A stretch of 45,141 nucleotides of DNA. It comes from a virus. The stretch spans positions 1 to 45,141 of the IMG/VR virus record IMGVR_UViG_3300031673_000116. One strand, given 5' to 3'. Shown piece after piece: positions 7,505-32,600 of this stretch. The notes under the pieces were generated by a model. It had not been told where the DNA came from, did not search any database, and saw nothing but the letters and a program-made list of their open reading frames with translations. The position numbers were made by a program, and so were the translations under genes. The first letter of the stretch is position 1, and every line of letters starts with the position of its first letter.

Positions 7505-8053
7505 ATGAGCGGAAATTATCACGATCCAGTCAATCATCCGTCACATTACTGTGATCATCCATCTGGTGTGGAGTGTATTGAGATTACCGAACACATGAGC
7601 TTTAATCTAGGAAACGCAGTTAAGTACCTATGGAGGGCGGGGAACAAAGATCCTGGCAAGAAAGAACAGGATCTCAAGAAGGCCATGTGGTATATTGATC
7701 GCGAGATCGGTAGAGAAGGAACCGTGAACGACCTAGCAATTGATATTGAAACAGTCATGGAGATGTTCCCTAGCATTGTCGAAGATATTGATGAGTGTGA
7801 TGTTCCACCTGAATGGCTCGATCCAGACGCTGGGAAGATTAAACCATCAAGTTACACACAGGTGTCGATGGTCAAAGACCCACCGAATGATTGTAAAAAG
7901 AAAGATACTGATGTCCCGGTAACGTGTTTGTATGACGACTATATCCCGACTAGTGAGACTGTTGGATCAACCACCAAGAAATATAATCAGATGAGAGCAT
8001 CTGATCTTTTACCCAGCCAGGCACGTAAAAACGTGACACTTGCAGGAGCCTAA
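7505..8053 (+). CDS. DUF3310-domain protein
   Basis: A 182-residue protein. The N-terminal 70 residues carry the DUF3310 signature: VNHPSHY, then GVECIEITEHMSFNLGNAVK (about residues 20-39), then YLWRAGNKD, and LKKAMWYIDREI. The domain is widespread in phages, and in T7 it forms part of the gp1.7 nucleotide kinase. The C-terminal 100 residues are unrelated, acidic and probably partly disordered. A ribosome site, GAGAGGGAG, precedes the ATG. With the HD phosphohydrolase two genes downstream it suggests control of nucleotide pools during infection, which is inference. Confidence 0.85.
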   Translation: MSGNYHDPVNHPSHYCDHPSGVECIEITEHMSFNLGNAVKYLWRAGNKDPGKKEQDLKKAMWYIDREIGREGTVNDLAIDIETVMEMFPSIVEDIDECDVPPEWLDPDAGKIKPSSYTQVSMVKDPPNDCKKKDTDVPVTCLYDDYIPTSETVGSTTKKYNQMRASDLLPSQARKNVTLAGA

Positions 8054-9434: not shown

Positions 9435-9435
9435 G

Positions 9436-11366: not shown

Positions 11367-11876
11367 ATGGCGAGTTCCACTGCGGACAAGAAAATTACTG
11401 AATTCATTAAAGACTTAAATTCTACAACTCCAAGAAAAAGAGCAAAAAGGGAAGATGGCGTAATCGCCATGTTGGAGTTGTTGGACCCACTTGAGCTAAA
11501 TAACTTATGTGGGAACGACAAAGAATTCAGGTTAACCGTAGATGCAGAGAACCGCCGTGCCGTTCTCAAGGCACAACATCTTCTTCATCTTGTACTAGAA
11601 GAGATGATGTCAGAGGAAAGACTTGAATGCACGAATCTTGATGACCTGAGAAAGACAGCAGATGCTGCTGCAAAGATTTCCCAGCTTCTCAATAACAGGC
11701 CCACTGCCATTGCAGGGAAGCCTGACTTAGATGAATCAAGTGATGACGACATTACCAAGAAACCACATTCTTCACTTACCGATGATGAATTGGCAGTGAT
11801 GATGAAGAGAGCCCAGGACAACAAGCAGAGGCTAGAAAAGAATATTGGTCCTGTTAGGTTACATAAGGATAAGTAG
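11367..11876 (+). CDS. terS: Probable small terminase subunit
   Basis: A 169-residue protein whose GTG-overlapping stop joins it directly to the large terminase. CGGAGG lies about ten bases before the ATG. The N-terminal part is helical and could hold a DNA-binding segment. The central helices (about residues 50-110, rich in Leu, Ala and Glu) could drive oligomerisation, and the C-terminal 40 residues are charged. Small terminases recognise the packaging site and activate the large subunit, and they vary greatly in sequence. The call rests mainly on position and size. Confidence 0.6.
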   Translation: MASSTADKKITEFIKDLNSTTPRKRAKREDGVIAMLELLDPLELNNLCGNDKEFRLTVDAENRRAVLKAQHLLHLVLEEMMSEERLECTNLDDLRKTADAAAKISQLLNNRPTAIAGKPDLDESSDDDITKKPHSSLTDDELAVMMKRAQDNKQRLEKNIGPVRLHKDK

Positions 11877-13543
11877 TGGCAGAGAAGAAAGTATTCAAAC
11901 GCAAGGGTAGTTCTAGTTGGCTAAAAGATAGCCAATACTACAATCCTGCCAGGCTCAAGTTCGCCAACAAGAAGGAGCGCGAAGAGTTTATCGGACAAAT
12001 GCTTCTTGAGGAATCCCTCATGGAGGAGAGTATGATCCGCCAGGCCAGGGTGGATCCCTGTGTATTCATTGAATACGTGATGAAGGACGATAGCCCTGAT
12101 AGTGGGAACAGGAAGATTGAATTAGCCAAGTTCCAGAGGGATCAACTTATCCCACATTTTATGGACAATCCGAATGCCATTGCCGTGATCCCAAGAGAAC
12201 ACGGCAAGACCACAATCCTGATTGGTTTGATCCTGTGGTTGATCGGCAATAATCCAAACATTCGTGTGAAGCTGGTCTGTAACTCAGATGACAACGCAAA
12301 GAAGCGATTAGGTAAGATTGTTACCTACATGATGCACGATCCTGATTTTAAGAAAGTGTTTCCTGACATTAAGCCAGATCCCCGTGCCTCATGGACCAAA
12401 ACAGCTATTACGGTGAAGCGTGACACAATTGCTGTAGACCCAACCATTGAGGCGTGTGCAGTTCTTTCTACGGCTACCGGTGGACGCGCTGACGTTCTGC
12501 TTGTAGACGATCCGGTTGATGCTAGAAATACCATCCAAAACCCAGCACTCCAGAAAACAGTTAAGTCTGTGTTCAAGAGTGTGTGGATGAATATTCTAGT
12601 GCCCAATGGAAAGATTTGGTATATTGCTACTCTTTGGAGCAAGGCAGATCTCACTCATGAACTGATGAAGAACAAGAGGTTCAAGACCCTCAAGATTGAG
12701 GTTGGGCCTGACTACCAGACAATTTGGGAAGATCGTTGGCCCAGAGAACGACTTGTTGAAAAGAGGGAGTCTATTGGCTCCGTTGAGTATGACAGAAACT
12801 TTAGACACCTTGTTGTATCAGATGAGGACAGAATTTTCTCTGACTATGTGTTGTCCAGACTTCCCAACGACAGACTTGGGATCGAGGATATACCAGATAG
12901 CTGGAGTAAGTTTGGGGGTATCGACCTCGCCATATCAAAGAGACTAGATTCAGCATACACAGTAATGTTTACAATTGCAGTAAACCCAGAGAATAATCAC
13001 AGAGTTGTGTGTGAGATTGCTAGGGGGAGATACTCGTCCCCAGAGACAGCACAGATGATTGCTCGTCAATTCGACAAGTGGAAACACCAGATGATTTATC
13101 TTGAAACAAATGGTTACCAAAGAGCAATCAAAGAATGGATGGAAGTAGCTGGTTATAGTATTATCCCAATGAGGTCATTTTTCACTGGTGCCACCAGCAA
13201 AATGGACATTGCAACAGGTGTTAGCTCTATTGGTGTAGAGATGGAAAATGGCAATTGGGAAATACCTATGAAAAACCATGAAGAATCTGGTATGATAGGT
13301 GGAGATCAATGTCGATGTTCTTTCCATAAATATCTGACTGAATTGAGACATTATCCACTTTCTGAAACTACTGATATTGTTATGGCTTCTTGGCTTGCCC
13401 GGGAGGCAGCTAGGCGTTACCGGGGGGGATCATTCATTAGGGTTATAGGTGAGAGCGATCCAGAAGAGGATCATGTACCTGCGCCTAGACTGATTGACAG
13501 CATTGACAGCCACGGCCCGCTAGAGCGGTTAGGAATTTTTTAA
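11876..13543 (+). CDS. terL: Large terminase subunit (packaging ATPase and nuclease)
   Basis: A 555-residue protein with a GTG start that shares a base with the previous stop. The ATPase domain holds a Walker-A-like PREHGKTT (residues 106-113), Walker B VLLVDDPVD (207-215) and the coupling motif IATLWS (about 250-255). The nuclease domain opens with GGIDLAIS (Asp350), with a further acid in YLETNG (near 408) and DIVMASWLA (near 510), as in RNase H-like terminase nucleases. It moves DNA into the prohead at the portal and cuts it. It has normal length and all key motifs. It overlaps the portal gene by one base. Confidence 0.93.
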   Translation: MAEKKVFKRKGSSSWLKDSQYYNPARLKFANKKEREEFIGQMLLEESLMEESMIRQARVDPCVFIEYVMKDDSPDSGNRKIELAKFQRDQLIPHFMDNPNAIAVIPREHGKTTILIGLILWLIGNNPNIRVKLVCNSDDNAKKRLGKIVTYMMHDPDFKKVFPDIKPDPRASWTKTAITVKRDTIAVDPTIEACAVLSTATGGRADVLLVDDPVDARNTIQNPALQKTVKSVFKSVWMNILVPNGKIWYIATLWSKADLTHELMKNKRFKTLKIEVGPDYQTIWEDRWPRERLVEKRESIGSVEYDRNFRHLVVSDEDRIFSDYVLSRLPNDRLGIEDIPDSWSKFGGIDLAISKRLDSAYTVMFTIAVNPENNHRVVCEIARGRYSSPETAQMIARQFDKWKHQMIYLETNGYQRAIKEWMEVAGYSIIPMRSFFTGATSKMDIATGVSSIGVEMENGNWEIPMKNHEESGMIGGDQCRCSFHKYLTELRHYPLSETTDIVMASWLAREAARRYRGGSFIRVIGESDPEEDHVPAPRLIDSIDSHGPLERLGIF

Positions 13544-14982
13544 TGGGTTTTTTTGATAGAACCAATAAGCCATTGTCGGTTACTGCAAAGATCCTTCACA
13601 AAGAAGAGAAGGCTTCTGCGCAAACACCACTGGTGTCAACTAGTGCAGTAGATGTTAGCAGCTCCAGTGTTGACATTGATTTCCAATCTCTTCCCGACTT
13701 TTATTCAACATCTTGGGTTTATGTATCCGTTAGCAAAACTGCAAATTCATGCTCTTGTATCCCAATTAAGGTTTTCAACAAAGAGATCATCACGAGAGAG
13801 ACTGAAACCAAGGATGCACAAGGGAATGTTGAAACAGTAAAGTTCGAAGAGGAAAGGATAAGCAGGGTCCACGGGGCAAGACTAGAGCGACTATGGAAAA
13901 AGGCCAACCCCAACATGAACGGCACAGACCTCATACGGGATCTTGTGTCCTACATGTTCTTGACCGGACAAGGGATGCTTGAGGTTGTCAGAGACGGGAA
14001 CGATTCTCCATCTGAGCTATACATTATTGACCCCAGAAGAATGGAGCCGATTCCAGATCCCAAGACCAAGATCAAGGGGTGGAAATATACAGTCAACAAT
14101 AAAACGATATTTCTTGATAAGAGGGACGTAATCCATATCCCATTTTTCCATCCAAGTAATAATTTCTGGGGGTACCCCACGTCTAAGACCGCCAAGCGCA
14201 GGGTACTGACAGATGAGAAGGCCCTTTTGTTTAGGGAGAGATTCTTTGACAATAACGCCCTTGTCACCGGAGTCCTTGAGACCGATCAGGAATTGACCGA
14301 TCCTCAATACAAGCGAGTAGATAAGTTCTGGTCACAAACATATGCTGGTGTCCGTAATTCACATAAAGTAGCTATTCTTGAGGGGGGCTTAAAGTTCAAA
14401 GCCATCTCACACAAAGCTCAAGAGATGGAATACAATGCCGGTAGGGAGTTTCTCAGGGATGAGATTTTTGCCATTTACGGCATGTACCCTGCGGTTGTGG
14501 GGATGAGTAAGGGCTTGAGTTCTGGTGAGATCGAGCAGCAGTACAAGATGTATTACCAGGAAACAATTATGCCCATCATGAAGCTGATTGTATCCAAGAT
14601 TAATGAGTTCTTCTTTGGTGATGCGCGATTTAACAATAGGCGGCAACAGCAGTTTGCTATGTTTGACTTTTCTGAGGTGCCCGCAATGCGCGGTGACATT
14701 GAGGCTGAGTCTCGCATGGCTGCTCGTTATGTGGATCGTGGAATTATGAAGATCAATGAAGCCAGGGCTTCGTTCCTGCATATGCCATCTGTTGAGTGGG
14801 GAGAGCATTTCTTCAAACCAATGAATCAGGAGCTTTGGGTCCCCGGTCAGACTCCCGTACAGGAAGGCGAGAACCCCAGTGGTGGACCGGGAACGTCCCC
14901 TGGCAACGATGGAACACAACCGGGGACAGAACCAGATCGAGGCCCCGGGGAAGACCCTGAAATTGATGTTGGTCAAACTTAA
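13543..14982 (+). CDS. HK97-type portal protein
   Basis: A 479-residue protein with the family pattern: an N-terminal region leading into STSWVYVSVSKTANSCSCIP (about residues 54-73), the central stem and wing segments, and EFLRDEIFAIYGMYPAVVGM near residue 304. Portals form the dodecameric ring at one capsid vertex through which the terminase pumps DNA. The C-terminal 40 residues are Gly/Pro/Glu-rich and probably disordered. Its position right after terL confirms the call. A leftover intergenic space with a promoter follows. Confidence 0.9.
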   Translation: MGFFDRTNKPLSVTAKILHKEEKASAQTPLVSTSAVDVSSSSVDIDFQSLPDFYSTSWVYVSVSKTANSCSCIPIKVFNKEIITRETETKDAQGNVETVKFEEERISRVHGARLERLWKKANPNMNGTDLIRDLVSYMFLTGQGMLEVVRDGNDSPSELYIIDPRRMEPIPDPKTKIKGWKYTVNNKTIFLDKRDVIHIPFFHPSNNFWGYPTSKTAKRRVLTDEKALLFRERFFDNNALVTGVLETDQELTDPQYKRVDKFWSQTYAGVRNSHKVAILEGGLKFKAISHKAQEMEYNAGREFLRDEIFAIYGMYPAVVGMSKGLSSGEIEQQYKMYYQETIMPIMKLIVSKINEFFFGDARFNNRRQQQFAMFDFSEVPAMRGDIEAESRMAARYVDRGIMKINEARASFLHMPSVEWGEHFFKPMNQELWVPGQTPVQEGENPSGGPGTSPGNDGTQPGTEPDRGPGEDPEIDVGQT

Positions 14983-15049: not shown

Positions 15050-16411
15050 TTGGATATTACTATTCCCTTTAGTACAGAAACTCTAGGTAAGGACATTCTA
15101 GGTGATTTTAATATTGATGGGAAAGGTATGTTCTTTGCTCCCATCCAGAAAGCACTAGGAGATAACAGTACCGGCACGGTAGTTAGGGGCATGGCCTCTA
15201 CGTCAGATGAAGATAGGACTGGAGATATTGTCCTACCGGATGCGTTCCGGTCTTCCATTGAATTCTTCATGAGCAACAATCCCCTGATGTTTCTTAACCA
15301 TAATTGGGACGCACCAATTGGTAGAGTTACGTCGGCAGAGATTACCTCGTCTGGGTTGGCAATTGTAGGTAAGTTGGACGATGCCGCTGACAATCCAGAG
15401 GCAAAGCGTGCGGCAGGGTATGTGGACCGTAACCTGTTGAATGCGTTTAGTATTGGGTTCAGGATTCTGGATTTTGATTTCCGTATGGATCCACATGACG
15501 AGTTTTCGATTGTGGGCATGATCATCAAGGATCTTGAGTTGCTTGAGGTTTCTCTTGTAACCATCCCTGCTAACCGCAATGCGACGACAAACTCTTTCAA
15601 GATGTTTGGGCAGGTTGGTAGCGACCTCCAAGCCAGGAAGATGGCAGAGCACAAGAAGAATCTTGAACACAACGAGACCAAGAATCTAGTTGTAGAGATT
15701 GAGGAGATCCAAAATATTACTACAGAGACTAAAGAGATCGAGGAAAATTCCCCCAGGGGGGTTGCCGAGATCAAATCTGATTTGTATGGCATTCTTTGTG
15801 ATGATGACTTTGGGACGCTTGAGGAAGACGAGGAGCTTTCGCGGGCAGTAAAGTATTCAGAGCTGGCCCTTGAGCTAGACAGTTCCGGTCTGCATTGCCC
15901 CCACTACAGGAAACATACGAAGATGGAGATCAAGGAGATTCTTGACGGTAAGCGCTATGAGTTCCAACTCTTTTTCGCAGATGACGAAGAGGTTATGGTT
16001 TGGGAGAATACTTCCAATGAGATTCATAAGCTCAATGAAATGCCGAGAATGATCAAGAATCACATCAAGTCTACGGATACCTACAACAAGCTATCCGAGA
16101 TTAATACACTAGTTAAATGGTTTAATAATTGTAATGCACTTGACAATACCGAAATTGAAGTGCATAATGTTGATAATTCTTTGGAAGACGAAACTACCGA
16201 GAACGTAGTCAAGTCGCCTGAAACCGAGAAGGTTGAAGTTCCATCCAAGAATACCGGTGGTGAAAGTGCGAAACTGGAACTGGCCGTAGCAATCAAGGGT
16301 GTGCTGGACAAGCTAGATAGCATTGAGAAGGCACAAAAGGGACGAGATACCCAGGTAAACGTGCTGATTGAAAGAGCAATCAGCCAAGCTAAACTTTCAG
16401 GAGATTTGTAA
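15050..16411 (+). CDS. HK97-type prohead protease with long C-terminal extension
   Basis: A 453-residue protein with a TTG start after AAGGAGGGTGGG. Residues about 40-185 are the serine protease: TVVRGMASTSDEDRTGD, then the catalytic-type His in MFLNHNWDAPIG, FSIGF with the nucleophile Ser, and ELLEVSLVTIPANRNA. It would cut scaffold and capsid N-termini during maturation. The remaining 250 residues include a charged region, a small Cys/His-containing segment (about 285-320), an acidic stretch and a terminal coiled coil (about 405-450). That tail probably serves as the scaffold, since no separate scaffold gene is present. The stop is adjacent to the capsid ATG. Confidence 0.88.
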   Translation: MDITIPFSTETLGKDILGDFNIDGKGMFFAPIQKALGDNSTGTVVRGMASTSDEDRTGDIVLPDAFRSSIEFFMSNNPLMFLNHNWDAPIGRVTSAEITSSGLAIVGKLDDAADNPEAKRAAGYVDRNLLNAFSIGFRILDFDFRMDPHDEFSIVGMIIKDLELLEVSLVTIPANRNATTNSFKMFGQVGSDLQARKMAEHKKNLEHNETKNLVVEIEEIQNITTETKEIEENSPRGVAEIKSDLYGILCDDDFGTLEEDEELSRAVKYSELALELDSSGLHCPHYRKHTKMEIKEILDGKRYEFQLFFADDEEVMVWENTSNEIHKLNEMPRMIKNHIKSTDTYNKLSEINTLVKWFNNCNALDNTEIEVHNVDNSLEDETTENVVKSPETEKVEVPSKNTGGESAKLELAVAIKGVLDKLDSIEKAQKGRDTQVNVLIERAISQAKLSGDL

Positions 16412-17749
16412 ATGTCTGACGAGAATGTTGTCACTATTGATGACCAGCTTGTCGAGGCCGTTAAGGACATTAATGCTAGGTTGAAGGGACTTGAGACCGG
16501 TGCGGTTGAGAGTCGAGAAGCTGAGATTAATGCTGCTGTGCAGAAGGCTATTGCCGATCATGCAGAGCGGACCACTGCGACCCGCAAGACTGAGGATGAG
16601 GTTGAGTTTCAGGCCACTCAGGCCAAGGCTAGTTACAAGAGCTTTGTTAATTCGAGAACTGCTAAGGGATCTGACAACGAAGAGGCGCAGCGTCTTAATG
16701 ATGAGCTGCTTCTTATGTCCAAGATCACCCAGCGTCCGGTCCAGTCCCTCAAGGGATTCGGTGAGTTTAATGCTCTAATGAAGACCTTGTATACGTCCAA
16801 CACGGGCGGCGGCGAAGAGTATATTCCTACCCTTCTGTCCAACCGTCTTGCTGAGAAAGTGCGTCTTGAGCTGCGGGTTGCCGCGCTTTTTGATGACTTT
16901 GTTATGCCTTCGCAGCCCTTCGATTGGCCGCTGGAAGGTTCCGATTCTTCGGCGTACCTCGTCGGTGAGTCTACCAGCGTAATTGTTGGTGCTACTGTTA
17001 TTGCTAATTCGGATCCTGGCACCGCCAAGGTCCAGTTCTCTGCTGTGAAGCTCGGTTCCAAGACAATCTTCTCTGCCGAGGTTGATGAGGATTCTTTGAT
17101 CCCCATTATGCCGTATGTTGAGAAGAAGATTGCTCAGGCCATGGCTAACGCCGTGGAAGATGCGATTATCAACGGTGATACTGCTGGCACACATCAGGAC
17201 TCTGATGTTCTGTCTGCTGCCGATCATCGGAAGGCTTGGGATGGTTTGCGCAAGCTGACCAACGCTGGTGCGAAGGTGGCTCTTACTACTTTCAGTGAGA
17301 CCAACCTCCGAAGCATCCGTGGCAAGATGGGCAAGTACGGCGTCAATCCCCGTGATCTTGTGTACATTGTGTCGCCTGCTGGATACAACAAGTTCCTTGA
17401 TCTGGATGACGTGACTACTCTGGATAAGTATGGTCCCCAGGCGGTTGTGATTACTGGCGAGCTTGCTAAGTTTGACGGTATTCCTATCATGATCTCTGAG
17501 TTTGTGCGCGAGAACCTCAATGTGACTGGCGTGTATGACGGTATTACCGTTAACAATACTCAGGCGATTCTGGCCCGACCCGATCAGTTCCTTATTGGAC
17601 GGAGGCGTCAGCTTACCGTTCAGTCCGAGAAGCTGATTGAGGAGGATCAGGTCAAGGTTGTGGCTCATGATCGGCTGCACTTCCGCCATATCAACGAGAC
17701 GCCTACTGCGTCTAACTTCGTTGGTTTGGGCAATGACGTGGCTGTCTAA
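16412..17749 (+). CDS. Major capsid protein, HK97 fold
   Basis: A 445-residue protein. The first 115 residues are charged and helical (delta-domain type) and are probably removed by the protease just upstream. The mature part starts near the STG-GGEEYIPTLLS segment (about residue 130) and has the HK97-family run YIPTLLSNRLAEKVR, PLEGSDSSAYLVGE and DAIINGD (near 250). The C-terminal part holds the P-domain, with VVKVVAHDRLHFRH-type sequence near the end. Codon choice appears more uniform than in neighbouring genes, as expected for a highly expressed protein. A strong terminator follows. Confidence 0.92.
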   Translation: MSDENVVTIDDQLVEAVKDINARLKGLETGAVESREAEINAAVQKAIADHAERTTATRKTEDEVEFQATQAKASYKSFVNSRTAKGSDNEEAQRLNDELLLMSKITQRPVQSLKGFGEFNALMKTLYTSNTGGGEEYIPTLLSNRLAEKVRLELRVAALFDDFVMPSQPFDWPLEGSDSSAYLVGESTSVIVGATVIANSDPGTAKVQFSAVKLGSKTIFSAEVDEDSLIPIMPYVEKKIAQAMANAVEDAIINGDTAGTHQDSDVLSAADHRKAWDGLRKLTNAGAKVALTTFSETNLRSIRGKMGKYGVNPRDLVYIVSPAGYNKFLDLDDVTTLDKYGPQAVVITGELAKFDGIPIMISEFVRENLNVTGVYDGITVNNTQAILARPDQFLIGRRRQLTVQSEKLIEEDQVKVVAHDRLHFRHINETPTASNFVGLGNDVAV

Positions 17750-17774
17750 GTAGTCTAGGTTTTACTCTAACAGG

Positions 17775-17807
17775 AAGGCGGGGTGTTATTGCCCCGCCTT
17801 TCTTTTT
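17775..17807 (+). terminator. Strong terminator after the capsid gene
   Basis: AAGGCGGGG (17775-17783) pairs perfectly with CCCCGCCTT (17792-17800) around an eight-base loop and is followed by TCTTTTT. The right arm overlaps the -35 region of the next promoter. Confidence 0.88.
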
Positions 17808-17846: not shown

Positions 17847-18209
17847 ATGCCGAAATATGGACATTTGGTTCGCTGTACTGCTGATTGTGAGAATTACGTT
17901 AAGGATGCCGATTACACTGTGGGGTTGAACATTACAGAGCATGAGGCAAATCGAGTCTTTTCTGAACACCCTAAGTGCTGGACGGTGTTGAGGTTTAATT
18001 CTAAATTTAAGGATAAGAACCCAAAGCCAAAGTCCAAGGCAAGCAAAGAGAAAGTTGAGGATACCGTGGACGAGCCCGTGCAGTCTGATGTTGCCGATGT
18101 AACGGAGCAGATTGAGATTCCAGAGGTAAAGACTACTGGCCTGAAAAGCCCCGGTAAGACGTATAAGCCAGCGTGGTCAAGCCACAATCTATCTGACAAG
18201 GACGATTAA
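17847..18209 (+). CDS. Hypothetical head-region protein
   Basis: A 120-residue protein with AGGAGG nine bases before the ATG. The N-terminal 50 residues are compact, with Cys residues (RCTADCENYV and PKCW) and a short beta pattern. The middle is a Lys/Pro/Glu-rich low-complexity linker, and the end is short (KPAWSSHNLSDKDD). Its place right after the capsid gene fits a small decoration or head-to-connector factor, but no family was recognised. Its TAA shares the A with the next gene's ATG. Confidence 0.6.
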   Translation: MPKYGHLVRCTADCENYVKDADYTVGLNITEHEANRVFSEHPKCWTVLRFNSKFKDKNPKPKSKASKEKVEDTVDEPVQSDVADVTEQIEIPEVKTTGLKSPGKTYKPAWSSHNLSDKDD

Positions 18210-18883
18210 TGTCTCTTACCTTTGTAACCATTCAGGATTTAAGGCTCCATTCTGGGCTGACCGTTGGTGATTCCAGCAATGACACATTGCTGACGGACTA
18301 TGCAGAATCATCTGAGGCTGAAATCCTCAATATGGTCCCAAGGTTCAAGGGCAGGATCTGGAATCAGCCGCTGTTTGTTGCGGCAGAGACACATGATCAC
18401 CAGCCCAATGATATGTCGCCGGATGATTCTATTGTCCTGAAACATTATCCCGTGGCTTCTGTGGCGGGTGTCACCGATCTGAGCACTAACCTGCCCGTGA
18501 ACACTGGTAGCTATTTTGTTAGGCCAGATGAAGGCATGGTGACATTCTTTCCCACTGACATTGATGTTGTGCTGGATACTATTTCTCCGGGGTTGAACAC
18601 ATCTCGTTTCCGCCCTGGCCTGGCGAGGGGCAAGCGTAAGTATACGATTTCATACACTGTTCCTGCCATGGAGACACCGGCAGACCTAAAAGGACTTGTG
18701 CTTAGGAATGCCAGGAATGAGTTTTTAGCTAAGGGTATTCCTGCCAATGTTCGATCCATCAAGGTTGGTGACATGGAGGTTGAGAACGAGCCCTCTGGCC
18801 GTAGGCAGGCGTATTTTACTGATTCTGAATTCAATGTGATCAGAAGGTATATGGACTTTTATAGACATTCTACTGCGTTGTAA
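18209..18883 (+). CDS. Head-tail connector protein (gp6-like)
   Basis: A 224-residue protein beginning VTIQDLRLHSGLTVGDSSND, with an early run of helices (about residues 5-45) as in gp6/gp15-like adaptor proteins that bind under the portal. A beta-rich middle contains PVASVAGVTDL. The C-terminal helix includes a basic stretch. The position, second after the capsid gene, matches the adaptor slot of HK97-type siphoviruses. The family is assigned from the N-terminal pattern and gene order, not from a search. Confidence 0.7.
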   Translation: MSLTFVTIQDLRLHSGLTVGDSSNDTLLTDYAESSEAEILNMVPRFKGRIWNQPLFVAAETHDHQPNDMSPDDSIVLKHYPVASVAGVTDLSTNLPVNTGSYFVRPDEGMVTFFPTDIDVVLDTISPGLNTSRFRPGLARGKRKYTISYTVPAMETPADLKGLVLRNARNEFLAKGIPANVRSIKVGDMEVENEPSGRRQAYFTDSEFNVIRRYMDFYRHSTAL

Positions 18884-19535: not shown

Positions 19536-20039
19536 ATGTCAAGAAACGTCGATAAATATCTCAAGAGAGTCAAGAACAATAACGACAGAGAGAAGTTGCT
19601 CAGAGAGTCGATCTTGTTGTCTGGTTATTTCAATGTTAATGATCTTGAGATTGACGATCATTTGAATTTCTGTATTGATATGACGTTCAATCCAAAATCC
19701 ACAAGCTATGCAGAAGCGTTGATCACATCAGACATTGATACTGTAATTGGCAAGATCGTGTGTCAGATTCTTGACATCATGATTGTTTCGTCAAGGCTAT
19801 TCCCAAAACTCAAGTACAGGTACGAAGCCTTCAAGGTGGCTGTAAACTACCACTCAGACGCCCCCGGTGAGTCGTGGCAGCTAGGCTTCTGGACACACAG
19901 GGATGCAATCTTGAAGATCAAGTTATCGAGGGAGTTCAAGGAACACGGGATCAAGAACAAAGAGGTTATCACCTCCTGGCTAAAACAGACCAACATGAGT
20001 ACATACAAAGAACCTGTAGCACAGGAAATGTTGGCATGA
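19536..20039 (+). CDS. Hypothetical protein in the neck region
   Basis: A 167-residue helical protein with GGAGG about five bases before the ATG. It contains conserved-looking aromatic segments (LFPKLKYRYEAFKVAVNYHS, near residue 90) but no known motif. Its TGA overlaps the ATG of the sulfatase-superfamily gene (ATGA), so the two are translated together. It may be a virion neck protein or may belong functionally to the carbohydrate genes that follow. Confidence 0.6.
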   Translation: MSRNVDKYLKRVKNNNDREKLLRESILLSGYFNVNDLEIDDHLNFCIDMTFNPKSTSYAEALITSDIDTVIGKIVCQILDIMIVSSRLFPKLKYRYEAFKVAVNYHSDAPGESWQLGFWTHRDAILKIKLSREFKEHGIKNKEVITSWLKQTNMSTYKEPVAQEMLA

Positions 20040-21157
20040 ATGTAATTTGTATTCTTTATGATTCTCTCAGACAAGATTGTGTACAAAGATGCCCATCTTT
20101 TGTGGAACTAAAGTCAAGAAGCCTGTATGTCTCAGACATTATGGCTGCATCTACTTGGACCAAGACATCCATAGCATCAATTTTCGCGGCAGCATATCCG
20201 GTAGAACACGGTGTGTATTATGAGAATAGCGTGTTCCCCGATCAGGAGACATGGCTTCATAAGCTCAAATACTCACTGAGTACGAAAACTACTGGTATTA
20301 GCTCTAACCCGTGGATCATGGAAAAGTTTGGATTCAGCAAGTTATTTGATAATTTCAAGTATGTGAACTGGGATCCTCACAGTCCAACGATTGGTTCAGA
20401 GAAATGCTGTGATACAAAAATATACAGCATGCTGAAAAAGATGTTCAGTGAGCACACATCTAACAACTTTGTATATACTCATATGATGAGGACGCACCAG
20501 CCATATCATGCCAATTCTTATTGGGCGGGAGTTCAGGCTTGTGGTCAGCAAGTCCTTGATTTCATTGACTTTATTGACAATGGCCCCAATGCGGACAACA
20601 CAGTTGTCATGGTCGTGTCTGACCATGGTGAATCACTAGGTGAGAACGGGTTCAATTTTCATTCAGATAGTGTACAGCACGTAGAGGCGAAGGTTCCCAT
20701 GTTCCTGTACAGCAAGGGATCCGCCCAAAGTATGGGGACAGTGATGGATGAGTTTGTTGGGTCCAATGTTGATATTGGTCCTACCATTCTTGACATCTTT
20801 GGCCTGGGCGAAGACGTATTAGAGTCCTTTCTTCCTGGTATCAGTGTATTTGACAATCCAGATCCAAATAGAATCAGGATCATTGAGTCACATGCGAGAG
20901 GCAAGACGGGCATGGGGAGGAAAACCGCCATTGTCCAGGGGAATAAAAAGACAGTATTTCACGGCGACAAGCTAGAGTATGTTTGTGACCCACACACAGA
21001 AGCCAGGATAAAATCAATAGGATCAACTAGTGCTATTGCAACTGAGATCTTTATGGGGTATAAGGATCATGAAGTAGATGTTTTCAACTCGCTTCCGCAA
21101 GAAGATGTGGACCAGATTAAAGTTGAAAACAGCATGAAAGAATTAGGATATCTGTAA
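20036..21157 (+). CDS. Sulfatase / alkaline-phosphatase superfamily enzyme
   Basis: 373 residues from the ATG at 20036, which overlaps the previous TGA; an upstream extension of the frame is rejected. MNVICILYDSLRQD carries the first metal-ligand Asp (residue 9). ASTWTKTSIASIFAAAYPVE (about 38-57) is the nucleophile region, with Thr42 in place of the Cys or Ser of true sulfatases. VVSDHGESLGENGF (near 200) supplies two more metal ligands, Asp and His. A Thr nucleophile is usual in phosphoethanolamine-type transferases and some phosphodiesterases. There is no signal peptide or membrane helix, so it acts in the cytoplasm. It is an unusual gene among neck genes. Confidence 0.8.
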   Translation: MNVICILYDSLRQDCVQRCPSFVELKSRSLYVSDIMAASTWTKTSIASIFAAAYPVEHGVYYENSVFPDQETWLHKLKYSLSTKTTGISSNPWIMEKFGFSKLFDNFKYVNWDPHSPTIGSEKCCDTKIYSMLKKMFSEHTSNNFVYTHMMRTHQPYHANSYWAGVQACGQQVLDFIDFIDNGPNADNTVVMVVSDHGESLGENGFNFHSDSVQHVEAKVPMFLYSKGSAQSMGTVMDEFVGSNVDIGPTILDIFGLGEDVLESFLPGISVFDNPDPNRIRIIESHARGKTGMGRKTAIVQGNKKTVFHGDKLEYVCDPHTEARIKSIGSTSAIATEIFMGYKDHEVDVFNSLPQEDVDQIKVENSMKELGYL

Positions 21158-21189
21158 TTCTCAATGAGGCCGTCAGGTCCGAGGACGCA

Positions 21190-23664
21190 ATGAAAGAAAC
21201 TACTGTTAGCGTAATTATCCCCACATATAATCTGATTTCTTGTTTGTCCGACTGTGTTGAATCAGTTAGGGCACTTTCTGATTGCAAGATCCAGCTCATT
21301 GTAGTGGACAATGCACCCGATGACGAGGGAACAAAGGCATGGTGTGAGTCGTTTGGTGACATTGAATATTACAGGAACACAGTCAATAATTTTCCGTCCG
21401 CGATCAATCTTGGGATGGAACATGCTGTTGGTGATTACATTGTCTGGCTGAATAATGACACTATCGTTTGTCCTCATTGGGACTCTCGTTTGATTGAAGC
21501 CTTCGCAGGGGGAGAGGCCGCATATCAGATTGAGGTAGGTGCCGTGGGTCCTATTTCAACCACAGTTGGCGGGCCACAAAGAGAAGAGAATCTTGCCTAT
21601 ACAGCAGATGGATATGAGAAGTTTACAGAGGAAATCTATCAAGCACGCAAGGGTGCATATGAGATGAGTGGATTCCTCACAGGGTTTTGTCTCATGGTCA
21701 AGGCATCTGCCGCCAAGAAAGTAGGGAAGCTAGATGAAGATTTTGGCATTGATGCACACGGTGGTTTTGAGGACAATGATTATATCACCAGACTTATTCA
21801 TTCTGGCTACACAGCTATTATTCATCGAGGGGTATTCATCCATCACCAGATGAGTAGAACATTCCGCAAGTTCTTTCCAGAGGACAAAGTGGGGATGGTT
21901 AATAAGTCCAGGTTCTACAGAAAATGGAAGGAGATCAATAAGCAGCACAATAAGCTAGCTGTTTGCTATCGTGTTCGTATCCCCAATGACAGACACATGG
22001 ATTACTTTGAGAGATCTCTTAGTAAGTGTGCATCATTCGCTGATGGTATCGCAATCTTCAACGATCACTCTACTGTAGATAATTTTCACGACAAGGTGAA
22101 AGCTGCATGTGGTCCGTGTGAAGTTGTGATCCACGACAAAGAAGGTGATCTATTCAATGAACGTGATGATAGGAATCAGAACATTGATTTGGCTAAGTCT
22201 GCGTTCAATCCTGATTGGTTGATTACCCTGGATCATGATGAGATTTTCGAGGATGCCGTAACCCGTCAGTCCTTGGAGAAGCTCATGAACTTCCCTGATC
22301 CTGTCATTAAGTCTTATGGATTTCATTTCTGTACTTTCCATAATGATGAAAATAAGTTCCGTAAAGATGGTACTATGGGGAACATGGCTGGGTACAGGAT
22401 GTGGAGGAACGTACCAGGCAGGAAGATCATTCGTGGGAACAAGATTGGCTTGCACTGCGGCAATCATCCTGAATTCTCTAACCTTGAGAGATCATTCACT
22501 AATTTCAGAATCAAGCACTTGGGATACGTTGACAAGGTACAGGACAGAGAGAGGAAGAAAGATTACTACAATAGTCTTGACACAGACAAGAAGGTCAATC
22601 TGATTGGCGCTGACAATTATGACCATGTGGCAGATGAGAGCACTCTGAGATTGTACACCTACAAAGAGAACAACGGCGCTGCGCTTGTCCTGATGGTAAA
22701 GAACGAGGAGGACTATATTTCTGAGCTGCTAAATCGGCACGGCGCCATGTTCCCAGAGATCATTGTTGTTGATACTGGATCCACCGATCACACTGTTGAA
22801 CTTTGTAAGTATTTCACAGACAAAGTATATCTATTCAACAAAGAGACCAGGCCGCAGTATTTTGACGAAGATGGAACATTGATGGACCTCTCTGCCCCCA
22901 GGAATTTCGGATTAGATCAGGTCACAGAGGAATGGGCCGTAATTCTTGATGCAGATGAATATATCCATAACCCATTGGTAGTTCGTCACATGATGGATGA
23001 GAACACAATTGATGCCTATCAGCACCAGATTAAGAACCTCCAGAGGAACGGTCACTATACCATCTCAGAGTCCATCAGGACCGTCAGGATGAGTTCCAAG
23101 CTGCGTTGGACGGGTAGGGTACACGAGACAATCGACAAGAAGACAAGCCCCAATTCTGTTGTCACCATCCCCCATGGGCTTGATCATATTCATACTGGAT
23201 TCCTCAAGTCACAAGAGAAGGTCCATGCCAAACTTGAACATTACTCAAAGTTGCTACGGGCCGACCTACAGGACAACGCAAACAATGCCAAGGCTCACTA
23301 CGCCATAGGCGCACACTTCATGAACAAAGATAGATGGATTGAGTGTGAGGCTGCGTTCACAATTGCCTGCAATCTAGAGAAGACTTTTTACCCACCTCGT
23401 AGGGATCTTTGTTATTACTACATGAGGAAGGGCGCGACACTAATGCAGCAGACACTTGAGTTCCTCCCACAAGACCATACGTTCCGCCCACATGCACAGA
23501 AAGTTCTAGATTTTGTTAGAGAGAACTGTGGTGTGTTAAAGGTTGGGAATCCTGATTTGAGCGACAATACGGATGTTTTGGAATACCACAAGATTATGAA
23601 CAAAATGTTTGCTGATGACAACTACAAGGATATTGTGAAATCTACAGGATTGACAGACCTGTAA
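21190..23664 (+). CDS. Three-domain GT2 glycosyltransferase
   Basis: An 824-residue protein. Domain 1 (about residues 1-255) is a rhamnosyltransferase-like GT2: VSVIIPTYN, QLIVVDNAPDDEGT, WLNNDTIV. Domain 2 (about 255-495) is a divergent GT-A: GIAIFNDHSTVDN and WLITLDHDEIFED. Domain 3 (about 500-690) is another GT2: ALVLMVKNEEDY, IIVVDTGSTDHT, VILDADEYI. A C-terminal helical tail (about 700-824) looks TPR-like. Each domain keeps a DxD-type acidic site, so up to three sugar transfers may be coded in one chain. There is no membrane segment. GAGG precedes the ATG. It lies between neck genes, downstream of the phosphatase-like enzyme. Confidence 0.85.
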   Translation: MKETTVSVIIPTYNLISCLSDCVESVRALSDCKIQLIVVDNAPDDEGTKAWCESFGDIEYYRNTVNNFPSAINLGMEHAVGDYIVWLNNDTIVCPHWDSRLIEAFAGGEAAYQIEVGAVGPISTTVGGPQREENLAYTADGYEKFTEEIYQARKGAYEMSGFLTGFCLMVKASAAKKVGKLDEDFGIDAHGGFEDNDYITRLIHSGYTAIIHRGVFIHHQMSRTFRKFFPEDKVGMVNKSRFYRKWKEINKQHNKLAVCYRVRIPNDRHMDYFERSLSKCASFADGIAIFNDHSTVDNFHDKVKAACGPCEVVIHDKEGDLFNERDDRNQNIDLAKSAFNPDWLITLDHDEIFEDAVTRQSLEKLMNFPDPVIKSYGFHFCTFHNDENKFRKDGTMGNMAGYRMWRNVPGRKIIRGNKIGLHCGNHPEFSNLERSFTNFRIKHLGYVDKVQDRERKKDYYNSLDTDKKVNLIGADNYDHVADESTLRLYTYKENNGAALVLMVKNEEDYISELLNRHGAMFPEIIVVDTGSTDHTVELCKYFTDKVYLFNKETRPQYFDEDGTLMDLSAPRNFGLDQVTEEWAVILDADEYIHNPLVVRHMMDENTIDAYQHQIKNLQRNGHYTISESIRTVRMSSKLRWTGRVHETIDKKTSPNSVVTIPHGLDHIHTGFLKSQEKVHAKLEHYSKLLRADLQDNANNAKAHYAIGAHFMNKDRWIECEAAFTIACNLEKTFYPPRRDLCYYYMRKGATLMQQTLEFLPQDHTFRPHAQKVLDFVRENCGVLKVGNPDLSDNTDVLEYHKIMNKMFADDNYKDIVKSTGLTDL

Positions 23665-23684: not shown

Positions 23685-24422
23685 ATGGCAGATATATTTG
23701 GATTCAGCAATGTTAAGGGGACAAGCAATAAGAACATTATTACTGCCGGTGACAGTAATTCGGTAATGCAGATACAGGTAGACTTTAGCGAGATTACACA
23801 GCTCTTTGCTATCTATAATGAGAATGGAACAATTGCCAGAGGAGCCAGGGCGGCAATTAATCGAGCATTCAAAAAGATGGCAACCACTACACGTACAAGA
23901 TTGAAGGCAAATACCAACAAGAATAAGTTTGACAACAGGAGAAGTGGACGAAATCTTACATTTAGGCGCAAGGTGATTGTCCCCTATGCAGCAAGGACCG
24001 CCAAGGATAGGTCTCACATTACCAGCGGGAATCCACAACTGATAAATAGATTCAATAGTGACATGACTAAGGGCGTTGATATCACCCAACCAACCGATCC
24101 AGACAAGAACAAGATTACGGTTCAGATTGGATGGGATCCAAAAGCGACGAGAGTGGGGAATAATCGAGTAGATCTTCGCCATATCCCGGGGGTCATTACC
24201 GGTAAACGATTCTCTGTTCCTCGTGACGTATTGACTCTTACTTTGAACGAGGTTGAAAAGAACTTTGATGATATACTCAACAAAGAGATGAATAATTTTA
24301 TTAGTTCAGATTCGATCAGCCCATTCTCTGCCACAGGCAAGGGGGCCTCTTTGTCTGTTGGCCTCAATGATCTTGGATTCCAGGCAGCCCAGGGAATTGG
24401 TGACTTTATTTCGGGTGTGTAA
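23685..24422 (+). CDS. Head-tail joining protein (HK97 gp10-like candidate)
   Basis: A 245-residue basic protein. The region around residues 55-115 (ARAAINRAFKKMATTTRTRL followed by a basic linker) matches the helix-plus-basic pattern of gp10-like minor tail/neck proteins that seal the head-tail joint. The next gene looks like a tail terminator, which is the expected partner. A weak ribosome site precedes the ATG. This places the glycosyltransferase pair inside the neck module. Confidence 0.6.
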   Translation: MADIFGFSNVKGTSNKNIITAGDSNSVMQIQVDFSEITQLFAIYNENGTIARGARAAINRAFKKMATTTRTRLKANTNKNKFDNRRSGRNLTFRRKVIVPYAARTAKDRSHITSGNPQLINRFNSDMTKGVDITQPTDPDKNKITVQIGWDPKATRVGNNRVDLRHIPGVITGKRFSVPRDVLTLTLNEVEKNFDDILNKEMNNFISSDSISPFSATGKGASLSVGLNDLGFQAAQGIGDFISGV

Positions 24423-24424
24423 TT

Positions 24425-24835
24425 ATGGATAGAGTATTTGATGTAGTCACGACTTCCTTGATGAACGATACATCTGTTACGGATATCGTTGGCTCTAGGA
24501 TCAGCATGGGACATATTGCAACATTGTCTGAACCTCAGTTCCCATTGGTCACACTTGAGTTTGAGGTACGCGGTGATGTGTTGGTCCCTGGTGCCGTGGT
24601 CAGGCCACCCATCCAGATTTCGTCCTGGTCCCTCCGCAGCTTTACGGAAGCGGCAAAGATACTGAGACTGATTGAGAAGAACTTTATTGACAATATGCCC
24701 ATCCAGAATGATGACTTGAACATTACTCTGTCGGTATTGGGCACACCCACATTCGCTGCATTTTCGGAGGGCGAGAGCGAACCTAGATCATACAGTGGTA
24801 TCCAGTCTTATGACTTGAGTGTTTGTTTCAAGTAA
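24425..24835 (+). CDS. Tail terminator / tail completion protein
   Basis: A 136-residue protein starting two bases after the previous stop. MDRVFDVVTTSLMNDTSVTD and the following strand FPLVTLEF, then ISSWSLRSFTEAAKILRLIE, resemble DUF3168/gpU-type tail completion proteins that cap the tube before it joins the head. The size and position directly before the tail tube gene fit. The superfamily assignment rests on pattern and order. Confidence 0.65.
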   Translation: MDRVFDVVTTSLMNDTSVTDIVGSRISMGHIATLSEPQFPLVTLEFEVRGDVLVPGAVVRPPIQISSWSLRSFTEAAKILRLIEKNFIDNMPIQNDDLNITLSVLGTPTFAAFSEGESEPRSYSGIQSYDLSVCFK

Positions 24836-26653: not shown

Positions 26654-29600
26654 GTGCCAGGACTTAGAGAATTTGCAATTACGCTGACTGCCGATGTCGG
26701 CGGGATGGTTCGCGGGATCAAGAGGGGGACTGAGGCATTTGATGCCTTTGGCTTTGAAACTCGCCTTGTTTTAAGGACCATCGGGACAGCAATTACGGCT
26801 CTTGGCGCTGGTATCTCTACATTTGTTGCATTTGGTGTTAATGAGTTTAAGAAGTTCGAGAAAGAACTCAATAACTTTACTACTCTTCTTTTTGACGATG
26901 CCTCTACAGCAACAAATGAGATTACTCAACTAACAGAAGAGTACACAAAAGCAATTCTCGATCTTTCTGTCGCATCTGGAAAGACTGCCGTAGACCTCGC
27001 AAGAGGTTTGTATGATGTTATTTCTGCTGGTTCACAAAGCATTACAGATTCGTCACAAGCAATTGAAGTTCTTACGGTTGCCACACAGTTGTCGGTTGCT
27101 GGTCTTTCTAGTGTAGAAACTGCCGCAGATGGTGTAACCACAATCATGAATGCCTACGCTACCTCTAATGTTAGCGCAGCGGAGGCAGCGGATTTCCTGT
27201 CAAATACGGTAATTCGTGGAAAGACACGCCTGGACGAATTGAATGGGAGTATGGGTCGCCTAGCGCCTCTCGCATCACAGGTCGGTATTTCCCTCAGAGA
27301 CCTTTCTATTATTTTAGCCCAGACAACTCGCTCGGGACTCAAGACAGACGAAGCTATCACTTCAATCCGTGGCATTATGCGCTCCTTTATTAAGCCAACG
27401 GCTCAAGTTAGAGAAGCAGCAAAACTTCTAGCCATACAGTTGGACGATAGTTCATTTTCCATTGACGTTAATGCCATTAGAACAAAGGGCCTTGTTGGCA
27501 TTCTTGGTCAGTTGGCTACTCGGTATCGTAGTCTTACGGGCAAGGACCAGGCTGATTTTGTTAATCAGTTGGGTGAGATTTTCCCTCGTATCCGTGGTCT
27601 TTCTGGAGGTATCGCATCTCTTACTCAGTTTCTTACTGGTTTTGGTACTGAGCTTGAGCTTGATATTGAGGCCGCAGAAAGAACCGGTACTGCGCTCAAG
27701 CAGTTTGAGGACCAGACAGATACACTTGCCTTTGCTACGGATAGACTAAGTAGCTCCATTGCCGCTCTTGCTATTCAATCTGTAGATGGCGCCCTTACTC
27801 CAGCTCTCAAGCTTATTACAAATTCATTCACATTTCTCCTTGAGGTTCTGAGAGACATCCCTATTTTGGGAGACTTGATTGCTTTGTTTGCTGGCATTAT
27901 TGGCCCCATTGTTACAGCAACTGGTGCTATTATCCTTTTTGCTGCCGAAATAGCAATCTTGGATAAGTTTATTCTCCCACTTTTTATTGCACAGATGACA
28001 AGGATGGGGATTTCTGTTGGATTGCTCACTCTCGCCACCAATGCTTCCACCTTGGCGCTCAGTCTTTTTGCCGGGGCAGTGAAGACTGGCATCCTTCGTC
28101 TCTTTGGGACGCTCCCCACATTCGCGGCCTTTGCTGCTGCTGCGTTCCTTGGCGTAAAGGCCCTCGGCGCCTTGTTGGATGTATTTGTTGAGTCGAAGGA
28201 CGTTCTCACCGAAGAAGAGAAGTCTGTTATTTCGATTTCAGAAAATATCAGAGACAATGTCCAGAGGATCAAGGACTTAGAGGAGGCGAAGAAATCGGCC
28301 CTGCTTTCATCCGAAGAGAAGATAAACCTTGATACTAGAATTAAAAATCTAACCGAAGGAATAACAAAGGCTCAGTTGGATCTAAACGAGGCAATTGAGG
28401 CGACTCCGGCAGCCAAAGCCAAACAGCTATTTGAGGATCTTACTGAGACTTTTAATCTAATTAACAATCTTGGAGAAACCAAAGGCGATGGGTTCTTCGC
28501 CCAACTAAAAGATGCCTTTACTGGCTTCCCCGAACAGCTCAAAGGTTTGTTTGAGCTATTCAAGATTTCTGGAGTTACGCTTGACGTGACCGAGGCTCTT
28601 GCAAAGGTTGAGGCAGACAGAGCCGCTGCTAGAAAGAAATTCAATGAACTGGAAGCTATTGCGTTTGTTGAGTCCGCAACCTTTAGAGAGGAGGAACTTG
28701 AAGACATAACAAACGCCCTGAGACTTGATGCTGAAAAACTTGAGGCACAGAAAGACGCGCTAGGTGCATCCGATCTAAGACTTGAGGCTCTTAACAAAGA
28801 AATTGATTTGGCTAAGGCTCTTGCGAAGGATAAGAAGAAGTCAGAATTTGATCTTGCAAAGCTCGAACAGGATAGGGCAAAGGAGGAAACCAAACGAGCT
28901 GAGATAGTACGCAAACTAAATTCTGAGATTGCTCAATCCAATGCCGCCATTCTTGCATCAAAGGCAGAGGAGTTTGCGATCAATGTTGGCATCCTCCAGC
29001 AGCAGGCAGAGAAGACACTCTCGCTTGAGGATGACCGGATTGCCCAAATTGGTTTGGTTCTTTCTATCGATGCCGAGATTGATGCGAGAGAGGCCGCGCT
29101 TGTTGCTCTTAGGGCATCTGTTAAGGAAGAGAGGGCGCTTGCCCAAGACGCAAAACTAACAGAACAGGCGACACAGGCTAGAGTTGGCGCCATCCAGGCA
29201 AATATTAATAAATCAAAAGCAGAAATCGAAGCCCTAAAAGAGAAGAAGAGACTAGAACTAGAAACACTAGAGATTCTGAGGGATAGAAACAGAGAGCTAG
29301 AGCTTTCCAGAGAAAAACGCCTTGCAGAGATCGATGTTGACAGGATCAGGTTAGATATTGCCTCTAAGATTACAGGCGTAGAGGAAGAACAAAAACAAAT
29401 TGAGATTGAGTTAACAAAACTAGTTGCCGAAGAGTTACGACTCAGGAATGATCTTCTGGATTCAGAGTTTACTGACGTAAAAGGGAACGAAGTAAAGACC
29501 AGAGAACTACAGTTCCAAAGAGATGCTCTTATCGCACAAGCAGAAGCAGCCGATAAGTTAGTTGGACTCCTTACTCGATCTTCTTTCCAGCGTGGGTTGC

Positions 29601-32600
29601 AGAACATCTCTGATGCGATCAAGAATGCTAAGTTTGATTTTGAGGATCTTGCAGATCTTGTCATTGGCTTTGCTGGTGACATCAAGGGTGAGTTGACTAG
29701 CTCTCTTGAGGGCTTAATATCTGATGCTATTTTTAGTCCAGAGGCCAGACGCGCAATTAAGTCTGAGTTTGACCAGACCATGCGTGATCTCAGGACTAGT
29801 CATGCCGAAACACTGACTGAGATTGCCAAGCAAAGAGCCGCCGATCTTGCAAACCTCCAAGAGGTAGAAGCCGCAAAGCGGCTTGAGATTGGACAGACCC
29901 TTGGCCTTCAAAGAGAGGAACTTCGCAAGGAACTCCTTGGTGAAAGAGGAGAACGCATTGAGGCATTCCGCGATGAGAAGGACGACCTCAAAGATGCACT
30001 AAATGACGGGATCGAAGAGAGAAGAGAAGCGTTTAACAGAGAGATTACAGAACTCAATCGACAGCTTGCCGAAAAGGAGATCAAAGAGGAGGATTTCAAC
30101 AAGAAGGTTGCAGAACAGAAACGAGAACTGGCACAGGACATTCTCGATATTGAGTCTGATAATGCAAAAGATTTACTTGACGCCAGAGAGACATTCAATA
30201 ACGATATTGTTTCTTTGGACGAGGATAGAGAACAACAGCTTGCCGCCCAGCGAGCAGAGTTTGCAGCCGAACTTGAAACACAGTTTTCGGAGTTCGTTGG
30301 GGCAAGGGCAGATATTGAAGATACGTTCAGGTCTGATCTTCTGACTTCTCAGGAACAATTCCGCACAGATGTTGCACAAGCAATGATGGATCTACAATCC
30401 GCTCTTGAGGAGCAGGGAGACCCCATTGCTAATTTCTTTGATAATTTGTTTGCTGGCATCATTGGTAATTTTACTAGCCTACTTGCCCAGATTGGGGGCG
30501 GTCTTATTACTCAGGGGTTTGGTGCTCTTGCTAGTGCCATCGCCCCGGGCGCAGTCAGCGCCTTTACCACGGCTGTTGAGGGGACCGCGATTGGCGATGC
30601 GCTAGTTACTGGGGCAGGAGCCGCCGCAGCGACTACACTCTCTACTACAACTGCGGCAGGAGCCGCCGCAGCGGGCGGGGGTGGACTGGCGGCATTTGAT
30701 GTGGCTGCCCCCGCCAGCTTAGGTGCCCTGGGGACAGCCGCCATTGCAGCTATCCCCTTTGTCGTTGCCATTGTTGGCCCTATCATTGCAGAGGCTCTTG
30801 GTTTTGGTGTCCCAACAAGAGAAGAAGAGATTGAGGCTCAAGTTGCTGCTGGTTCTAAGGTTGTTATTGGTCAGTTTTTCGACCTGTTCTCTGACGCATT
30901 TGAATCACAAGATCTTAGTTTGTTTGACTTTGGTGAGGGGTTTGGGCCTACCGCTGCACCCACCTCCACTAACAACAGGACTGGACAAACATTCGATATT
31001 GGTCCCAGTATTGATAATCCACTAGATATTCTTATCAATTCCATTTCCCCCAGCTCTGCTGGTGCGGGTGGCCTGCGTGGCTCCGAGCAGGCCATTCAGG
31101 AATTGTTCTTTGGACCCAACTTTGAGAAAGGCCTAGAGCTTTCAATCGGTGTACCTATTAATAATATCGCTGGTGATATTTCAAGAACACTTGAAGCTAT
31201 CGGACTCAAGTTTGCAGGGTTCCTTGGGCTTGCGGGGGAAGAGGCCAGACAGTTTGCGGGCAACTTTGGCGCTTCGTTTGCCGAGTCCGTTGCGGCTGCT
31301 GGTGGTGGCATTGAGGAATTGCTCGGCGCTATCAGCGTGCTCGAACAAGAGTTGGGGGTTGATGGCGCAACTCTGAGAAACATTAACAGGATTCAGGATA
31401 GACTTGTAGACCAACTTGACCCCGGTGTATTCCAGGGATTTAGAAACAATATCATTACAGAACTCAAGGCACTTGGAGTTGACGTTGACGAATTTGCGTC
31501 TACCGAATTTGACCTGAATTTTATTGCCTCGGCACTTGAGGGGACAAGCGTTAGTGTCGAAACATTTCTGGATCTTATCATTGGTCAGATCGACCGCCTT
31601 GGCCCAGAGTTTGTTGATCTGTCTGGTATTGCTTTTGAAACTGGTCAGGCAATGCAGCTTGCGGTTCGTGATGGGTTTGGTGACATTGCCAGCATCACAG
31701 GGGAACTAACACCAGAACTACAGGCCAATCTACAGAGCAATATCGGTATCATTCAGGACATTGCAGAAGAGTCTGGGGCAGCCGCATTGGGTGTTGTCAA
31801 TGCTATCTTCATTAAGATCACTGAGATTAGAGATAAAGCACAAGCTGTGTTAGACGAACCAACGTCAACCCCAGAAGATATTGCTGCGGCCACTCAGGCA
31901 ATCATGGACGCCGACGTTGCCCTTACTGAGCTACAGGCACAGGCAGAATCTGGTGAGTTTGATTTTGCTGCTATCTTTGGGGATCTAGGATTACAAGGTG
32001 AAGAACTTCGCAAGTTCATCGTTGGCATAAGCAAGGAGTTACAGACAGCATTTACTGACCTCACCACGTTGAGCGAGGAACAGCTTGATATCCTCATCAA
32101 GAGGGGTGTCATTACAATTGAGACAAAGACTCTTGAGTTGCAGAGAAGATTGTTAGAAGCTGTTATAGATATCGATACAGTTGTTGTCGGGGTAACCAGT
32201 GATGTTGTTGCTCTCAACGGAGGTACCCTCAATGAGCTTGAGAGTGCTGTTACAACCACACAGCAGAACATTGCCACCGAAACCGTGAACGCACAGGCTC
32301 AAATTACAGCGTCAGCCGACATCATCACAGAGCGGTTTGCGCCTGACGGGGACCTTGTGGGACACATTGTCGAGATGGGCCAAGTGGGAGTACAGGCCGG
32401 TGAGGACATCGAAGAGGCATTCATCGGAACAGATGGTGTCATTTTCGCAGGCATTGAGGCGTGGGACGGTATAAAAGAAGCCGCCAAAGAAGCTATCGAG
32501 GGCCCCGGGGGGATGATTGAATCTGTTAATAATCTTGCGCTGGCTATCTCTTCCTTGCCTACAATTGATTTGAGTACAGAGTTCGATGCTGCCAAGGTTT

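Follow-up and report, generated by a model that had tools for sequence, protein, structure and literature searches.

Mycobacteriophages provide established cases of virion-protein glycosylation, which reportedly alters antibody recognition. Cluster-O mycobacteriophages encode an O-methyltransferase and three tandem glycosyltransferases (GTs) (PMC11600133), and a passage of that paper citing Freeman 2023 states that capsid and tail tube are modified by such enzymes. Che8 gp110 and Corndog gp38 have been named as essential for capsid glycosylation (PMC12363180), and a passage of that source, also citing Freeman 2023, gives glycosylation in Che8, Corndog and Myrna. Genes gp33-36 of phage Wildflower fit the cluster-O description, with an O-methyltransferase and three GTs lying between the portal and the capsid protease. 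Because of this arrangement and the reported glycosylation, a tested precedent for GTs within a structural block already exists. The DNA considered here (the window) is a 45,141-bp stretch from a virus, IMG/VR virus record IMGVR_UViG_3300031673_000116. Two adjacent genes among its head-tail genes encode a 373-residue enzyme of the alkaline-phosphatase/sulfatase superfamily and an 824-residue GT (Table 1). A sequence-only reading had proposed that the pair decorates the virion and had described such a block as normally purely structural, a premise that is not absolute given the cluster-O insertion between portal and protease.

Both enzyme genes were confirmed at their proposed positions by open reading frames, Pfam matches and a sister contig, IMGVR_UViG_3300031578_000158, which differs from the window at 5 bases over positions 1-31201 and at none within the two genes. 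Since this independent, near-identical contig carries both genes unchanged, it argues against an assembly artefact or chimera.

The 824-residue protein matches PF00535 at 136.8 bits, with two passing stretches, and appears to comprise three domains (D1-D3) of GT family 2 (GT2), as the sequence-only reading had held. D1 (approximately residues 1-250) passes PF00535 and carries NNDT at 88-91 and GFEDND; D2 (approximately 255-490), the weakest of the three, carries DHDE and a sub-threshold PF13704 match (E = 3.6e-4, window positions 22039-22248); D3 (approximately 498-720) passes both PF00535 and PF13704, carries VDTGSTD, DADE and W-x-G-x-VHE, and is followed by a helical C-terminus. The GT-A profile and the NND, DHD and DAD motifs of D1, D2 and D3 support GT2 membership of the protein. 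The best relatives of D3 in the PDB are GmaR (5.9e-11), a flagellin N-acetylglucosamine transferase, and SunS (3e-6), a peptide S-glycosyltransferase, with the remaining GT2s weaker; the alignments extend over about 200 residues, with D-x-D common to both relatives and VHE present in SunS, but GmaR and SunS have one catalytic domain where the 824-residue protein has three. Among 50,697 phage records no full-length counterpart of this architecture was found (no match covers 80%).

The 373-residue protein matches PF00884 at 71.4 bits (cut-off 25) and PF01663 at 25.4 bits (E = 1.3e-5, cut-off 23), and its D9, D196, H197 and H209 align within this core, placing it in the alkaline-phosphatase (AP) superfamily. 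Its predicted metal and nucleophile residues are D9, T42, H154, D196, H197 and H209. In the alignment with its nearest relatives, Thr42 aligns with the sulfatase Cys/Ser and Ile46 replaces the invariant sulfatase Arg. The formylglycine sulfatase motif is [CS]-x-[PA]-x-R (PMC5066984); this pattern was absent from the protein (T42-K-T-S-I46) and from the close relatives tested, and was recovered (PVCAPSR) in the control L027, a relative of choline-sulfatase type. Identity as a formylglycine (S1) sulfatase is thereby ruled out, there being no modifiable Cys/Ser motif and a Thr at the nucleophile position. The zinc ligands of MCR-1 are Glu246, Thr285, Asp465 and His466 at Zn1 and His395 and His478 at Zn2 (PMC5175174), and by sequence alignment only these are matched by D9, T42, D196 and H197 and by H154 and H209, respectively, with Asp in place of Glu. 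The spacing from DHGESLGENG to the next His (+12 from DH to H) equals that of MCR-1 and of an EptA-like protein. Because of the missing Cys/Ser motif and the combination of Thr42 with an EptA/MCR-type ligand set, the chemistry is most likely phospho-transfer or phosphodiester cleavage through a predicted phospho-Thr intermediate.

Neither a transmembrane segment nor a signal peptide can be discerned in the 373-residue protein (maximum 19-residue hydropathy 1.17, vs 2.43 in the EptA-like L018), and the enzyme is predicted to be cytosolic. It lacks the N-terminal transmembrane domain of the EptA/LtaS/MCR family, and its NCBIfam scores fall far under the cut-offs; it would therefore work like EptA or LtaS rather than belong with them. 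An AlphaFold2 model built from 3 sequences (mean predicted local distance difference test, pLDDT, 46) was used for fold assignment only, and all 50 of the Foldseek matches listed for it were AP-superfamily proteins (YejM/PbgA, a Vibrio AP-superfamily protein, sulfatases, LtaP), with YejM/PbgA- and LtaP-type structures among the top matches.

Both enzyme genes lie on the same strand as the head-tail genes, within the interval from the major capsid protein (MCP) to the tail. The ATG of the 373-residue protein at 20036 overlaps the stop of the 167-residue gene (19536-20039) by 4 bases (ATGA), and this start agrees with those of its relatives, whose first residues (MN[VI]) fall at the matching position; translational coupling of the two genes is likely. 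The gap to the GT gene is 32 bases and that from the GT gene to its downstream neighbor 20 bases. With this overlap and these short gaps, and no terminator between 17803 and 25268 comparable in strength to the site at 17772-17803, the two genes are likely co-transcribed with the neck and tail genes. That site may itself keep the expression of neck and glycan genes below that of the capsid gene. As for the flanking genes, the name head-tail adaptor stands (phrog_442), while "gp10-like" and "tail terminator" owe their names to position and size only.

A tblastn search with the 373-residue protein gave no match at 1e-5 in the same 50,697 phage records (weak matches only, E up to 10). The best matches in plasmid records, and the nearest non-phage relatives found, were haloarchaeal genes annotated as "sulfatase" or "sulfatase-like hydrolase/transferase". 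Their products are likewise soluble, with a C-terminal LGY tail and, in most copies, Thr at the nucleophile position, but are only 20-28% identical to the phage protein. Most of those examined lie in surface-polysaccharide clusters whose other genes include GTs, flippases and a pyruvyl transferase, and two or three sulfatase-like genes per cluster are frequent; on the haloarchaeal plasmids L024-L028 such clusters hold several sulfatase-like genes of the non-formylglycine kind, for which we know of no described chemistry.

Since the direct search gave no match, a second phage lineage with a sulfatase-like gene was found only through a profile built from the archaeal relatives. It is represented by L039, from a 90,407-bp phage contig, and L035, from a 32,046-bp contig. 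The order in L039 is MCP, further genes, sulfatase-like gene, a small gene, head-tail adaptor, a 152-residue gene, a GT2-TPR gene, major tail protein and tape measure; no GT2 was found in the L035 contig. Of the insertion that the sequence-only reading suggested seeking in related phages, both gene types are present in the block of L039 and the sulfatase-like one alone in that of L035. Both copies have Ser at the nucleophile position (HCSDPN), also without the Arg, the catalytic ligands are retained in all three phage copies, and phrog_19870 matches all three. With 43% identity between their tail proteins, L035 and L039 are relatives of one another, and BLASTP finds no similarity between the TerL of L035 and that of the window, so these are two lineages and not three independent cases. 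About 8% of the L039 contig lies between MCP and major tail protein, and the presence there of both gene types by accident is unlikely, roughly <1% under uniform placement by an estimate that is not a formal test. That this second, unrelated lineage also has a sulfatase-like gene among its head-tail genes suggests that phrog_19870 proteins have a late function not yet described. Among viral contigs, a degenerate motif pattern matched solely the near-identical sister contig. Candidates from a DHGE.LGE motif scan were rejected, L018 being an EptA-type gene beside prophage genes (L019 looks alike) and L021 a false match, as was L036, whose match adjoins a prophage and is probably host DNA.

Virion glycosylation is favored because the overlapping genes share the strand of the late block, where mycobacteriophages provide the precedent, because D3 resembles GmaR and SunS, and because the same gene types recur in the L039/L035 block; as in Wildflower, GTs are found in and with the structural module. 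The glycosylation system that the sequence-only reading placed in the late block accordingly remains the best-supported interpretation, although the sulfo-group removal it allowed is unlikely in view of the absent formylglycine motif and Thr42. We consider it probable that the GT by itself glycosylates the virion; a late, co-expressed system of both enzymes has a little less than an even chance. In such a system the GT would build a short glycan in the cytoplasm on a phage structural protein, for which the MCP is a candidate acceptor, each domain making one of up to three transfers. D3 would be likeliest to form the first sugar-protein bond and D1 and D2 would extend it, though the order could differ. 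The 373-residue enzyme would then act through a covalent phospho-Thr42 on a metal site of D9, T42, D196 and H197 (H154 and H209 would bind either a second metal or the substrate), adding or trimming a phospho-substituent on the glycan, the direction and the phospho-donor being conjectural. The GT2 and methyltransferase genes at 4646-6611 and the upstream sulfotransferase may contribute additional decorations.

Several observations weigh against this interpretation. D3 also resembles teichoic-acid and exopolysaccharide GT2s, and direct comparison of Che8 gp109 and gp110 with the 824-residue protein gave no significant similarity and no clear homology. The AlphaFold2 models are poor, with mean pLDDT 33 for the GT (single sequence) and 46 for the 373-residue protein. 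Characterized phosphoethanolamine transferases are membrane enzymes with lipid donors, which leaves the donor of a soluble counterpart unexplained. Lastly, the L035 gene without a GT2 indicates that the sulfatase-like enzyme may act without a GT.

The two enzymes might instead alter a glycan of the host surface, for example to block superinfection, their placement in the late block being incidental. Surface polysaccharides are common targets of GT2 enzymes, the 373-residue protein has its archaeal relatives in surface-polysaccharide clusters, and the PHROG matches include GtrB-like O-antigen conversion. However, neither protein has a transmembrane segment (the maximum 19-residue hydropathy of the GT is 1.32), no flippase or GtrA/GtrC-type membrane partner is seen in the window, and a place in the late block fits poorly with exclusion or lysogenic conversion; we regard host-envelope modification as unlikely. 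That L035 and L039 both have a sulfatase-like gene at the neck, in L035 on a fragment lacking a GT2, would also suit a virion-associated enzyme of the neck with a function of its own, or a fold re-used for structure, that stands next to a GT by chance. Structural re-use is opposed by the catalytic ligands kept in every phage copy, which mark the protein as an enzyme, and a separate function by the GT2 in the L039 block and the GTs that accompany the archaeal relatives, and this explanation too must be counted unlikely.

It is improbable that the GT2 domains glycosylate a hypermodified DNA base and that the AP-superfamily enzyme acts on a phosphodiester of that base. Protection of DNA is a role often proposed for phage GTs (e.g. 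PMC10202952), and an HD-type deoxynucleoside monophosphate (dNMP) phosphatase is encoded at 9400-10086, but the genes stand in the late structural block and not among DNA-metabolism genes, and a thymidylate-synthase-type hydroxymethylase (PF00303) is absent from both contigs of the phage, a negative that is not final for an incomplete genome. Very improbable, finally, is a true sulfatase acting on a phage- or host-made sulfated glycan, for instance together with the upstream sulfotransferase. The PF00884 match and a Sulfotransfer_2 gene lying some 175 bp before the window begins would agree with such an enzyme, but Thr42 cannot become formylglycine and the motif that the control L027 possesses is missing.

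Table 1. Features of the window and of related contigs (positions are those of the window unless a contig is named)
Feature	Position	Strand	Evidence or remark
Second glycosyltransferase, single GT2 domain, 247 residues	4646-5389	+	PF00535 3.8e-10
Methyltransf_24 methyltransferase	5389-5907	+	PF13578 1.4e-6
FkbM-type methyltransferase	5877-6611	+	PF05050 6e-5, just above cut-off
TerL	11876-13543	+	
Portal	13543-14982	+	
S78 prohead protease	15050-16411	+	
HK97-type MCP	16412-17749	+	PF05065 5.9e-12, phrog_10 1.7e-19
Strong intrinsic terminator-like site	17772-17803	+	14 bp stem and T-run, directly after MCP
Head-tail adaptor	18209-18883	+	phrog_442 E = 5.1e-10
167-residue gene	19536-20039	+	Open reading frame and gap tables; no Pfam/PHROG family match
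Alkaline-phosphatase/sulfatase-superfamily enzyme, 373 residues	20036-21157	+	PF00884 1e-19
Predicted triple-GT2 glycosyltransferase, 824 residues	21190-23664	+	PF00535 8.9e-40, PF13704 2.1e-11
Downstream late gene, earlier called "gp10-like"	23685-24422	+	Name not confirmed by profiles
Gene earlier called "tail terminator"	24425-24835		No confident Pfam/PHROG match
Tape measure	26654-32824	+	
Amidase-type endolysin	40499-40993		
Sulfotransfer_2-type gene	L022 (near-identical contig) 5360-6106	-	PF03567, barely over cut-off
MCP	L039 4265-5965		
Sulfatase-like gene	L039 9419-10669		phrog_19870
Head-tail adaptor	L039 11009-11902		phrog_442 2.3e-15
GT2-TPR gene	L039 12303-13451		
Sulfatase-like gene	L035 10001-11224		Between MCP and neck genes; phrog_19870

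The late module, from TerL to the amidase-type endolysin, is of siphovirus type and lies on the + strand of the window, and the endolysin suggests a bacterial host. The sister contig reaches 6281 bp further upstream without a match to the window end, which rules out a circular genome and makes the window a partial one. The genes at 4646-6611 form a second sugar cluster, overlapping in order, upstream of the packaging genes, and the L022 sulfotransferase gene carries a P-loop-like motif (VPKTGGT). Sugar genes of these kinds are also grouped in cyanophage S-SRM01 (sulfotransferase, GT and epimerase near one another) and in cyanophage ACG-2014f (GT2 and epimerase near tail genes). The upstream module further holds a DUF3310 gene (7505-8053) which, with the dNMP phosphatase-type gene (9400-10086), may serve the nucleotide pool. 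A 331-residue protein (43694-44689), whose gene adjoins a phage exonuclease gene, matches the cellulase (GH5) profile PF00150 below threshold (E = 0.0034).

If the favored interpretation is true, virion glycosylation extends to an uncultivated phage unrelated to mycobacteriophages, with a fused triple GT and a phospho-transfer-type enzyme. Like the mycobacteriophage systems (cluster O, Che8 type), the window phage encodes GTs together with a methyltransferase, and Wildflower gp33 (PF13578 1.8e-9) has its Pfam family in common with the Methyltransf_24 gene. In Wildflower, however, three separate GTs stand in a row together with the O-methyltransferase, between portal and protease, whereas in the window three GT2 domains are fused, the insertion follows the head-tail adaptor, the methyltransferases lie outside it at 5389-6611, and an AP-superfamily enzyme is added. 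Virion glycosylation itself is already known; what is new here is that three GT2 domains are fused, that they follow the head-tail adaptor and that an AP-superfamily enzyme is present. EptA/EptC/MCR, LtaS and OpgB (MdoB) share with that enzyme the Thr nucleophile, matching metal ligands and the DHGE...H spacing, and the phage protein differs from them in having no membrane domain, D9 in place of Glu and about 20% identity. EptC acts on a flagellar rod protein and on N-glycans, and PptA on pilin, so that both may be viewed as analogues, with the same chemistry on appendage proteins and protein-linked glycans. It is conceivable, though doubtful, that the late neck genes of a class of tailed phages include one for a soluble AP-superfamily phosphotransferase with a Ser/Thr nucleophile, which would place phospho-substituents or phosphodiester-linked groups onto virion proteins or their glycans as the counterpart of EptC and PptA on flagella and pili.

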